The notes under the pieces were generated by a model. That model had not been told where the DNA came from. It did not search any database and was given only the letters and a program-made list of their open reading frames with translations. Positions 9,274 to 13,754 of a DNA stretch of 64,000 bases are shown piece by piece. Within the stretch, counting starts at the first letter, position 1. Each line of letters opens with the position of its first letter. Both the position numbers and the translations under genes were made by a program. This stretch comes from Arhodomonas aquaeolei DSM 8974 (GTDB lineage: Bacteria; Pseudomonadota; Gammaproteobacteria; Nitrococcales; Nitrococcaceae). The stretch spans positions 248,001 to 312,000 of the forward strand of contig NZ_KB894801.1 of assembly GCF_000374645.1 (NCBI RefSeq), read 5' to 3'.

Positions 9274-9310
9274 GGCAAGATCGTCCAGCTTTCGGACGCT
9301 TTCCTCAATC
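9274..9310 (+). promoter_or_regulatory. Putative AraC-type direct-repeat operator, copy 1
   Basis: GGCAAGATCGTCCA (9274-9287) is followed by TTTCCTCAATC (9300-9310), 26 bp start to start. The cores TCGTCCA (9281) and TCCTCAA (9302) form direct repeats 21 bp apart, which is two helical turns and typical of AraC/XylS-family sites. The same arrangement occurs at 12147-12183 before the aldehyde dehydrogenase gene. The AraC-type regulator encoded between them is the natural candidate to bind. Confidence 0.65.
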
Positions 9311-9395
9311 CCACGGGCACGGACGCCGGGCTAGCCTCATCGATGAGATCACGGTGCCCACAGAGGCACGCCCGTACCCAGGAGGAGGGAACGCC

Positions 9396-10559
9396 ATGAC
9401 CTACCAGATCGTGATGCCGCGGGTGATGGAGATCGGCGGCGGCGCGAGCGGCTCGCTCGCCTCGGTGCTCGAACGTCTGGGCCTGTCCCGGCCGCTGATC
9501 GTCACCGATGCGTTCATGAACACCCGCGGGCCGGTTCCCGGCCTCGTCACCCAGCTCAGGGAGGCCGGGATCACCGCCGGCGTATTCGCCGACACCGTGC
9601 CCGACCCGACCACCGCCTCCATCGACGCCGGCGTCGAGGCCCTGCGCCAGGACCGTTACGACTGTGTCATCGGCGTCGGCGGCGGCAGCCCGCTGGATTC
9701 CGCCAAGGCCATCGCCTACCTCGGCACCTTCGGCGGCACGATGCGCGACTACAAGGCGCCGCGCCAGAATGACGGGCCCGCCCTGCCGGTGATCGCCGTC
9801 CCGACGACCGCGGGCACCGGCTCGGAGGTCACGCGCTTCACCGTGATCACCGACAGCGAGAGCGGCGAGAAGATGCTCTGCGGCGGTACCGCCTTCTGCC
9901 CGACCGCGGCCCTGGTGGACTTCGAGCTCACCCTGAGCATGCCCTTCCGCCTGACCGCGGATACCGGCCTCGACACCCTCACCCACTGCATCGAGGCCTA
10001 CGTCTCGCGCCGCCGCAACCCGATCTCCGACGCCCACGCCATCGCCGGCATGCGCGCGGTCGCCGACAACCTCCGCACCGCCTGCTTCGAGCCGGACAAC
10101 CGTGAGGCCCGAGAGGCGATGATGCGTGCGGCGACCCAGGGCGGGATGGCCTTCTCCAACGCCTCCGTCGCCCTCGTCCACGGCATGAGCCGGCCCCTCG
10201 GCGCGTTCTTCCACGTGCCCCACGGGCTGTCCAACGCCATGCTGCTGCCGCGGATCACCGAGTACTCCGCCGAGGGCGAGGCGCTGCCGCGCTACGCGGA
10301 CTGCGCCCGGGCGATGGCCGTCACCGCTCCGGACGCGGACGACGAGACCGCCGTCGCCGCCCTGCTCGATGCCCTGCGCGCGCTCAACCGCGACCTGCAG
10401 GTCCCCACCCCGGCGGACTACGGTATCGACCGGGCCGAATACGAGGGCGTCCTGGAGACCATGGCGGAGCAGGCACTGGCGTCCGGCTCGCCGGGCAACA
10501 ACCCCCGCGTGCCGGACGTGCCGACCCTCAAGCAGCTCTACATGGACTGCTACGAGTAG
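9396..10559 (+). CDS. Iron-containing (group III) alcohol dehydrogenase
   Basis: This is a 387-residue NAD(P)-dependent alcohol dehydrogenase of the iron-activated family. The nucleotide loop is GGGSPLDSAKA (95-105). The expected metal ligands are D193, H197, H262 and H276 (DTGLDTLTH, VHGMSRPLG, VPHG). R266 replaces the histidine commonly found four residues after the third ligand (HxxxH in FucO-type enzymes), which marks a distinct subgroup. The strong ribosome site GGAGGAGG (9381-9388) fixes the ATG. Pairing with an MmsA-type dehydrogenase under a shared operator suggests oxidation of a hydroxy acid such as 3-hydroxypropionate, as with DddB. The substrate is not proven by sequence. Confidence 0.85.
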   Translation: MTYQIVMPRVMEIGGGASGSLASVLERLGLSRPLIVTDAFMNTRGPVPGLVTQLREAGITAGVFADTVPDPTTASIDAGVEALRQDRYDCVIGVGGGSPLDSAKAIAYLGTFGGTMRDYKAPRQNDGPALPVIAVPTTAGTGSEVTRFTVITDSESGEKMLCGGTAFCPTAALVDFELTLSMPFRLTADTGLDTLTHCIEAYVSRRRNPISDAHAIAGMRAVADNLRTACFEPDNREAREAMMRAATQGGMAFSNASVALVHGMSRPLGAFFHVPHGLSNAMLLPRITEYSAEGEALPRYADCARAMAVTAPDADDETAVAALLDALRALNRDLQVPTPADYGIDRAEYEGVLETMAEQALASGSPGNNPRVPDVPTLKQLYMDCYE

Positions 10560-10570
10560 TCCCGCGACAC

Positions 10571-10593
10571 GACGGGCCGCCCGGCGGCCCGTC
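10571..10593. terminator. Hairpin between convergent genes
   Basis: A 9-bp perfect stem, GACGGGCCG / CGGCCCGTC, with a 5-base loop lies between the stops of the alcohol dehydrogenase and the AraC-type regulator. It could act as a bidirectional terminator, but no T-run follows on either side. Confidence 0.5.
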
Positions 10594-10598
10594 GCCCC

Positions 10599-11480
10599 TC
10601 AGCCGTAGCGCATCGCCCGGTAGCGCGTAGGCGAGACCCCGACCACCTTCCGGAACAGCCGCGAGAAGTAGTAGGCGTCCTCGTAACCGAGCTCGAAGGC
10701 GATCTGCTGCACGCTCCGCGTGGATATGTCGAGCAGATAGCAGGCCCGTTCCATCTTCATGTGGATGAAGTTCTGTATCGGCGGCATCCCGGTCAGGCGC
10801 TTGTACTGACGGGCGAAGGTATAGCGCGAGAGGTTCACGCTCGCCGCCAGCGTGTCCAGGTCCAGGTGGTGGTGGAGGTTCGCCTGCATCAGCGCGTGCA
10901 CGTGATCGAGGTCGAAGCCGCCCGCCTGACGGGTCGCCGAGCGTGGCGAGACCACCGCCAGGTAGCTCAGCATCGCCCGCAGGTGGTTCGCCGCGTGCAC
11001 GAACACCGGCGGGGAGTAGCCGCTGCGACGAACCCCCAGCAGGGTCTCGAAATCGGCGAGGAGCTTCGGCGAGCGCCCGAGCCGGGCCACCGGCCGCTCG
11101 CGCTCGAAGCCGATCGCCGCCCAGAAGTCGCCGGTGCGCGTGCCATCGAAATGCACCCAGTACAGCGTCCAGGGGTCGTCGCCGGACGCGGCGTAGGCGT
11201 GGAGGACGTCGCGGGGCAGCAGCATCACGTCCCCGGCCGCCACCGGCCACTCATGGCCGTCCACGCTGAGGGTGCCGGCCCCGTCACAGCAGTAGAGCAC
11301 CAGGTGGTCAACATGGCTGTCGCGGCGCACGGCGTGGCCGGCCGCGCGGGGATAGTAGCCCATGGCGTGGGGATAGAGCTCTCGGGTGAGCGGGTTCCCC
11401 GCCAGGTGATCGCGCAGGAACGTGGGCACGAAGAAACGCACCCCCTCCGGCGGCAACGGCCAGTCAGAGGGCCCCGTCAC
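10599..11480 (-). CDS. AraC-family transcriptional regulator
   Basis: This 293-residue regulator has an N-terminal cupin-like sensor half (about 30-160) and a C-terminal double helix-turn-helix (about 190-290). The latter includes LDTLAASVNLSRYTFARQY and IAFELGYEDAYYFSRLFRK. It lies between the alcohol and aldehyde dehydrogenase genes on the opposite strand. Both of those genes carry the same direct-repeat motif with 21-bp core spacing. The inference is that this protein activates both in response to an alcohol, hydroxy acid or aldehyde. No copy of the motif is seen in front of its own gene. Confidence 0.88.
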   Translation of the reverse strand: MTGPSDWPLPPEGVRFFVPTFLRDHLAGNPLTRELYPHAMGYYPRAAGHAVRRDSHVDHLVLYCCDGAGTLSVDGHEWPVAAGDVMLLPRDVLHAYAASGDDPWTLYWVHFDGTRTGDFWAAIGFERERPVARLGRSPKLLADFETLLGVRRSGYSPPVFVHAANHLRAMLSYLAVVSPRSATRQAGGFDLDHVHALMQANLHHHLDLDTLAASVNLSRYTFARQYKRLTGMPPIQNFIHMKMERACYLLDISTRSVQQIAFELGYEDAYYFSRLFRKVVGVSPTRYRAMRYG

Positions 11481-11569
11481 CGCTGCCCCCCTTCCGCCAC
11501 CGGGACGATTTTGCCGCGTTGTTGGTGTAGGCTTGCCGCCCGTGCCCCAAGCGAACGGATGCCGGAGCG

Positions 11570-12136
11570 ATGAGCCGTCCCTGCGCGTTTTTCCGAGAGT
11601 TCCTCCGCCGCCCGGGCGAGGTGGCGTCCATGATCCCGAGCTCGCGCTTCCTGGAGGCGGGCCTGGTCGGGGCCGCCGACCTCGCCAGCGCAGCGACCGT
11701 GGTGGAGCTCGGGCCCGGCTCCGGCGGTACCACCACGGCCCTGCTCGCGGGCATGGCGGCGGATGCGCGGCTGCTCGCCGTCGAGATCAATCCACACCTG
11801 CATCGCCTCCTCGCCGGTATCGATGACAACCGCCTCGTCGCCCACTGCGGCAGCGCGACGGCCCTGGACCACGCCCTGCGGGAGAACGGCCTGCCGGCGC
11901 CGGACGTGGTCGTCTCCGGGATCCCCTTCTCCCGCATGCCCGCCGACGACGGCCGGGCCGTGATCGAGGCCGTCCGGGGCGCCCTCGCCCCCGGCGGGCG
12001 GTTCGTCGCCTACCAGCTCAGCGACCGCGTCGCACGGCTTGCCACCCCGGTGTTCGGCGCCCCGCGCATCGCGCGCTGGGAATGGCGCAACATCCCGCCG
12101 CTACGGCTGTACGTGTGGGACCGCCCGGCGGGTTGA
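11570..12136 (+). CDS. Class I SAM-dependent methyltransferase, PmtA-like
   Basis: This 188-residue cytoplasmic protein has the Rossmann methyltransferase signature VVELGPGSGGTTTALL (about 44-59) and an acidic SAM-binding end of strand 2 (LLAVEINPHLHRLL). The N-terminal IPSSRFLEAGL block and the overall length resemble phospholipid N-methyltransferases and related small rRNA-dimethylase-like proteins. The substrate is unknown. It sits between the AraC regulator (divergent) and the aldehyde dehydrogenase (same strand). The operator and leader of the dehydrogenase separate them, so it is probably an independent unit. Confidence 0.7.
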   Translation: MSRPCAFFREFLRRPGEVASMIPSSRFLEAGLVGAADLASAATVVELGPGSGGTTTALLAGMAADARLLAVEINPHLHRLLAGIDDNRLVAHCGSATALDHALRENGLPAPDVVVSGIPFSRMPADDGRAVIEAVRGALAPGGRFVAYQLSDRVARLATPVFGAPRIARWEWRNIPPLRLYVWDRPAG

Positions 12137-12146
12137 ACCGCCCCTG

Positions 12147-12183
12147 GGCAAGATCGTCCATTACCCCGTTCGTTTCGTCAATT
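12147..12183 (+). promoter_or_regulatory. Putative AraC-type direct-repeat operator, copy 2
   Basis: GGCAAGATCGTCCA (12147-12160) is identical over 14 bp to the site at 9274. It is followed at the same 26-bp offset by TTTCGTCAATT (12173-12183). The cores TCGTCCA and TCGTCAA are direct repeats 21 bp apart. The site lies about 60 bp before the aldehyde dehydrogenase start, where an activator site would be expected. Confidence 0.65.
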
Positions 12184-12242
12184 CGCCCCTCCCGGACACG
12201 GCGCCAGACTGAACGTCCGGTTAACCGCGAGGAGGAGCGATC

Positions 12243-13754
<1,512 letters not shown>

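Follow-up and report, generated by a model that had tools for sequence, protein, structure and literature searches.

An AraC-family regulator and its predicted paired operators before alcohol and aldehyde dehydrogenase genes of Arhodomonas aquaeolei

Two dehydrogenase genes of Arhodomonas aquaeolei DSM 8974, one for an iron-containing alcohol dehydrogenase (Fe-ADH) and one for a CoA-acylating methylmalonate/malonate-semialdehyde dehydrogenase (MMSDH), flank a gene for an AraC-family regulator, and each is preceded by the same 14-mer, GGCAAGATCGTCCA. Does the regulator act at these sites, and what would it sense? We addressed both questions in a stretch of 64,000 nucleotides (positions 248,001 to 312,000 of contig NZ_KB894801.1; referred to here as the window), in the whole genome of the strain and at loci of relatives. 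We consider it highly probable that the two sites serve as landing sites of the AraC-type regulator, which would control both genes in what looks like a small circuit for growth on a three-carbon hydroxy acid, probably 3-hydroxypropionate. The site, its spacing, its uniqueness and conservation, its co-occurrence with the regulator, and the families and kinship of the enzymes were read from the sequence; from these we infer binding, activation rather than repression, the substrate and the inducer.

Two bipartite sites and their promoters

The features on which the argument turns are as follows.

9274–9309, plus strand: predicted bipartite operator before the Fe-ADH gene (half-sites at about 9275–9288 and 9296–9309, 21 bp apart); genome G024 has an equivalent (locus L044)
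9396–10559, plus strand: predicted Fe-ADH of DddB type, 387 aa (Pfam PF00465/PF25137)
10599–11480, minus strand: AraC-family regulator, 293 aa, with a cupin-like ligand domain and a C-terminal helix-turn-helix (PF02311, PF12833, PF00165)
12147–12182, plus strand: predicted bipartite operator before the aldehyde dehydrogenase gene (half-sites at about 12148–12161 and 12169–12182); kept at 10 of the 11 further loci that carry an AraC orthologue
12243–13754, plus strand: predicted MMSDH of DddC type, 503 aa (NCBIfam TIGR01722)

The original prediction placed GGCAAGATCGTCCA at 9274 and 12147, each copy followed 26 bp later by TTTCsTCAAT, and both copies are found there. The second halves read TTTCCTCAAT at 9300 and TTTCGTCAAT at 12173, with cores 21 bp apart, a spacing that had been claimed from the window and that recurs at 10 conserved loci. 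Alignment with sites of relatives resolves each site into two 14-bp half-sites arranged as a direct repeat 21 bp apart, the half-site of relatives reading roughly GCAAnATcGTCCAt then GCgATTTCGTCAAT; the predicted core was thus correct in its copies and spacing, and too short in its extent (the half-site is about 14 bp). Between the two half-sites of a site, 12 of 14 positions match in the marine gamma proteobacterium HTCC2148, compared to 6 and 7 of 14 for the two sites of the window.

The full motif is specific to these two promoters. When we scanned the whole A. aquaeolei genome (3,957,769 bases, 3.96 Mb, in 48 contigs) for GGCAAGATCGTCCA-N12-TTTCsTCAAT with up to three mismatches, the only matches were 9274–9309 and 12147–12182, and the reversed control gave none; the 14-mer, when its sixth position may be either G or A, likewise has two perfect matches. 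The concern that the motif might occur at many unrelated loci is therefore not borne out, as it occurs in two places and both are the expected ones. The 14-mer alone is less selective, with 17 matches at up to three mismatches in the window compared to a mean of 7.04 over 100 shuffles. When the two upstream regions were shuffled with their dinucleotide content preserved, no 14-mer was common to both members of any of 2000 shuffled pairs.

Sites of relatives also place the operator relative to the promoter. In 12 of 14 such sites (a count that includes the Fe-ADH site of genome G026, placed by eye) the extended -10 sequence TG(C/T)TA, or TGYTA, begins exactly 19 bp after the site, and in G024 both sites have a TGYTA-like stretch 1–2 bp nearer. 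The window counterparts, GGCTAGCCT and CGCCAGACT, lie in the same register and are poorer, and define two further features.

9332–9337, plus strand: putative -10 element TAGCCT of the Fe-ADH promoter, weak, in register with those of relatives
12205–12210, plus strand: putative -10 element CAGACT of the MMSDH promoter, weak, in register with those of relatives

With a usual 17-bp spacer the -35 element would start on the final base of the site, and the proximal half-site would thus abut or slightly overlap it. Operators of AraC-type activators typically consist of two direct half-sites about 21 bp apart, with the proximal half at -35 in a class-II-like arrangement. The geometry predicted for the window and the 10 loci fits this description, the -35 position having been deduced from that of the -10 element. 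We propose that an AraC dimer, or two subunits, would bind the two direct half-sites 21 bp, that is two helix turns, apart. Because the proximal half ends where a -35 element is expected and the extended -10 is weak, the regulator most likely replaces the -35 contact and activates transcription in a class-II-like manner, and in this way would turn on both the DddB-type Fe-ADH gene and the DddC-type acylating dehydrogenase gene.

The site ends 23–36 bp before the regulator start in 9 of 10 relatives (2 bp in L041), and such proximity suggests that the operator may serve autoregulation as well. In the window, a lone half-site-like sequence precedes the regulator gene.

11502–11515, minus strand: tentative lone half-site-like GGCAAAATCGTCCC, 21 bp before the GTG start of the regulator gene

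By eye we saw no second half-site beside it, and half-site-like matches at two mismatches number four in the 64 kb, this one included; on these grounds we do not count it as an operator. It is possible that it is an autoregulatory half-site, and it is the sole candidate seen before the regulator gene of the window.

Conservation of the operator with the regulator

The regulator was claimed to be of AraC type and to lie between its targets, and both points hold. Its N-terminal AraC-like ligand-binding (cupin) domain (PF02311, E 1.4e-20) and its helix-turn-helix domain (PF12833, E 4.1e-21; PF00165 in two stretches) are confirmed. It is one of 13 AraC-family matches in the A. aquaeolei genome. 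The gene layout is less simple than predicted, as a second gene also lies between the targets.

11570–12136, plus strand: small methyltransferase-like gene, PmtA/OlsG-like, below family cut-offs

This gene splits the regulator from the aldehyde dehydrogenase gene and its operator, and is not so placed in the relatives seen.

We compared the window with 11 other loci that carry an AraC orthologue (45–66% identity overall). Full-length orthologues occur in five other genomes of the order (55–66%) and two more are present as contig-end fragments, the contigs of G029 and G051 stopping inside the regulator gene. Three further gammaproteobacterial records carry orthologues at 47–49% identity, namely L041 (HTCC2148), and L042 and L043, both from metagenome-assembled genomes. 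A class sample of 370 genomes added one genome (46%), and at E <= 1e-25 the window regulator is without a match in 367 of the 370. Nine AraC relatives on plasmid records, at 27–33% identity, were not used. At 10 of the 11 loci the best motif match of the locus occupies the interval that separates the regulator from the divergent gene and has 1–5 mismatches in 24 positions, whereas dinucleotide shuffles of these loci average 8.2–9.1 mismatches and reached the observed value in 0 of 60 cases at nine loci and 1 of 60 at L043. The bases between and around the half-sites diverge among relatives while the half-sites persist. A lack of conservation beside orthologous genes, named in the original prediction as a reason to abandon it, is thus not what we find.

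Chance, or a recent promoter duplication with no regulatory role, could be invoked to explain the shared 14-mer, and the two window promoters do stay alike downstream of the operator, through the -10-like stretch. Yet there are just two copies in 3.96 Mb, the shuffled pairs yielded no common 14-mer, and the half-sites are kept in diverged genomes; this conservation largely refutes the idea, and we give it almost no credence.

To assess specificity across the order, we ran a relaxed pattern, CAANATNGTCCA-N13-TTNGTCAAT with up to two mismatches, on 54 genomes. It matched 14 places, 10 of them at the regulator locus, compared to one for the reversed control. All eight regulator-bearing genomes (two of them as contig-end fragments) have a site at the locus, G000 and G024 having two each and the six others one. 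Three of the 46 regulator-free genomes have one stray two-mismatch match each, and a further stray is found in G051. Within loci of about 3 kb, none of the four strays (L086, L089, L090 and L091) has an adjacent relative of any of nine window proteins, and we treat them as chance matches. Separately, we note that L090 and L091, from two genomes of the window's family, have in common a two-mismatch match in seemingly related sequence.

Could the sites belong to another DNA-binding protein, with the AraC gene as a bystander? The A. aquaeolei genome has other AraC-family genes, and L075 has an AraC orthologue and lacks the site. Against this, the operator occurs together with the AraC orthologue in at least four families and is seldom seen where that orthologue is absent, and a 21-bp direct repeat adjoining a promoter is the layout of the AraC family itself. 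We regard a bystander role as quite improbable.

Several observations nevertheless weigh against assigning both operators to the regulator. Both -10 elements of the window are poor. The relaxed pattern was derived from the same sites that it scores, so matches at the regulator loci are obtained partly by construction, and the low count elsewhere is the informative part. L075 (AraC orthologue at 46%) has no clear operator, its best match having seven mismatches, a value equalled by 4 of 60 shuffles. At six control loci, where an Fe-ADH homologue is encoded and the 16 kb covered include no AraC orthologue, the best matches have 8, 8, 9, 8, 9 and 6 mismatches; the six-mismatch match, at L074, was reached by none of 60 shuffles, and is located on the opposite strand, over 1.5 kb away from the Fe-ADH gene. 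The remaining points concern the Fe-ADH promoter. In four relatives the Fe-ADH gene adjoins the regulator (G024, G025, G026 and G039), and the site is clear in G024 (L044; 4 mismatches in 24), degenerate in G025 (6 mismatches) and G039 (8), and doubtful in G026, where it was placed by eye and has halves about 20 bp apart. The 18 kb covered for G035 contain no Fe-ADH match. A TGCTA -10 element stands at the usual place, or within 2 bp of it, in all four Fe-ADH promoters of relatives. Given this graded site quality, we regard Fe-ADH as a firmly assigned target in the window and in G024, and as a less secure one in the other relatives. Of the small two-target regulon first proposed, the alcohol dehydrogenase site is thus the weaker member.

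In L045–L050 a second conserved element, approximately AAGCTCCATT, was seen by eye upstream of the MMSDH start, between the promoter and the ribosome-binding site. None was seen in the window, G024 or L041–L043. Its role may be that of an additional half-site or of an element of the leader.

The enzymes and the likely signal

What the regulator might sense is suggested by the enzymes. The window MMSDH scores 697 bits against TIGR01722 (cut-off 448.5), and its best match in the PDB is 4zz7, titled methylmalonate-semialdehyde dehydrogenase, which we take to be DddC of Oceanimonas. At E <= 1e-20 the genome encodes no other protein like the Fe-ADH, which falls below every NCBIfam cut-off. Homologues of the two are adjacent in L070 (58.5 and 65.1% identity for Fe-ADH and MMSDH, respectively) and in L073 (56.6 and 65.3%). 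Family searches identified a BCCT transporter, a LysR-family protein and an 837-aa CoA-transferase-type protein as neighbours in L070; the same set was recognised in L073 by length and translation only. DddB and DddC of dddBCDRT clusters process 3-hydroxypropionate onward, according to the portion of PMC9327192 consulted, and by likeness to that gene content L070 and L073 look like dddD-like clusters. A tree of 15 MMSDH proteins places the window enzyme among 12 DddC-type rows, which split from three valine-type rows with a support of 100/100. The valine-type rows are L043, the second MMSDH of A. aquaeolei (50% identical to the window's, with genes for acyl-CoA dehydrogenase and ECH_2 next to its own) and L075, whose neighbours lay outside the family tests. 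By this kinship the window enzymes match the DddB/DddC type, predicted to convert 3-hydroxypropionate, or a close 3-hydroxy acid, to malonate semialdehyde and then acetyl-CoA, and not valine-type MmsA. We favour 3-hydroxypropionate, with some confidence, as the substrate of the module, and regard this acid, a near relative or an intermediate of the pathway as the probable inducer.

TRAP-transporter genes (P, Q and M) follow the MMSDH gene in G025, a gene for the TRAP binding protein DctP is found in G026, and TRAP genes lie directly downstream of the DddC-type gene at L048:3041-6275 and L045:5188-6483, which suggests that they are a candidate uptake system for the acid substrate. At L072:5871-10826, Fe-ADH and MMSDH genes stand with those for an enoyl-CoA hydratase and a CaiB-type CoA-transferase, and the region resembles an acrylate cluster of the acuNK type.

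The operators could instead be genuine AraC-bound sites of a module for 3-hydroxyisobutyrate, from valine, or for a short-chain alcohol or aldehyde. MMSDH-family enzymes accept both methylmalonate and malonate semialdehyde, a 3-hydroxyisobutyrate dehydrogenase (TIGR01692, 411 bits) is encoded after the MMSDH gene in L044, and the same operator and AraC orthologue (47–49%) stand beside valine-type genes in L041–L043 (in L041 and L042 partly by eye). In L043 the gene divergent from that of the regulator encodes a valine-type MMSDH, and genes for acyl-CoA dehydrogenase and ECH_2 come next, all family-tested. In L041 the partner is another acylating aldehyde dehydrogenase, SauS-like (513 bits against a cut-off of 600), and the next genes, by eye, encode an acyl-CoA dehydrogenase, a member of the enoyl-CoA hydratase family and a 3-hydroxyisobutyrate-dehydrogenase-like protein; L042 resembles L041 up to its contig end, and neither has an MMSDH match. 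The A. aquaeolei genome, however, holds a separate valine-type operon (MMSDH, acyl-CoA dehydrogenase and ECH_2), at which operator matches have at least eight mismatches, the window MMSDH falls outside the valine-type clade, and Fe-ADH homologues are found in dddD-like clusters. We consider a valine or short-chain module the less likely reading.

Two matters count against 3-hydroxypropionate all the same. The shared operator at L041–L043 means that the inducer may be 3-hydroxyisobutyrate or a semialdehyde. Moreover, a search with the DddD-like protein of L070 found no full-length DddD in the A. aquaeolei genome (two partial matches, at 29% and 33%), so that no source of 3-hydroxypropionate emerged from it; nor, by this search, does the genome have a full-length gene for the DddD lyase that marks a dimethylsulfoniopropionate (ddd) cluster.

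Most simply, the regulator would respond to a signal that the two pathways share. Tentatively, the AraC regulator and its operator of two 14-bp half-sites may have been kept while the enzymes changed, being valine-type in L041–L043 and DddB/DddC in the window's order; what stayed unchanged would then be the signal, either a 3-hydroxy acid or its semialdehyde. If true, this would be a case of a regulator and operator retained while target enzymes changed, and the regulator would be an undescribed AraC-type sensor of 3-hydroxypropionate/3-hydroxyisobutyrate.

Comparison with known systems

The regulon looks new, and the kind of system is familiar and fairly ordinary. In Pseudomonas aeruginosa the regulator gene PA3571 presumably adjoins mmsAB, which to our knowledge is valine-type and includes no Fe-ADH gene. 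Its product, MmsR, is an AraC-family positive regulator (PMC8151288, which cites Steele 1992 on the mmsAB operon), as is proposed for the one encoded in the window; the likeness is by description, and the consulted part of that paper describes no operator. Another comparable system is CnAraC/PacaD of Cupriavidus necator, in which an AraC-family gene is divergent from acaD-mmsA2-mmsB (PMC5431877). CnAraC differs in its valine-type gene content and in showing no significant response to 10 mM 3-hydroxypropionate, and its operator is not described in the part of PMC5431877 consulted.

Systems for 3-hydroxypropionate itself use other regulators. The dddBCDRT clusters of Marinomonas and Oceanospirillaceae (PMC9327192) and the AcuZ/DddZ system of Halomonas (PMC13104084) employ DddB and DddC for 3-hydroxypropionate, as proposed here for the window enzymes, yet in the sections consulted their regulators are of LysR type (DddR, DddZ/AcuZ) or TetR type (AcuR; PMC13104084), whereas that of the window is of AraC type. 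The window pair also lacks the adjoining DddD, LysR and transporter genes of ddd clusters. HpdR and MmsR of Pseudomonas putida/denitrificans control the 3-hydroxypropionate dehydrogenase gene and mmsA (PMC5431877, PMC6441110), but as described in the excerpts consulted they belong to the LysR family and use inverted-repeat operators with no evident likeness to the window motif. Among the titles and abstracts listed from the part of the literature that was searched, none describes the operator reported here. Since the published 3-hydroxypropionate regulators, so far as these partly consulted sources go, are of LysR or TetR type, the window regulator and its operator look new. What is added here is the assignment of the enzymes to 3-hydroxypropionate and a possible sensor in common with valine catabolism. 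The locus offers a testable set of regulator, operator and targets with a clear consensus, for a pathway that in those sources is otherwise under LysR and TetR proteins. Should 3-hydroxypropionate prove to be the inducer, the regulator would also provide an AraC-type sensor for a compound of interest both to industry and to studies of marine carbon.

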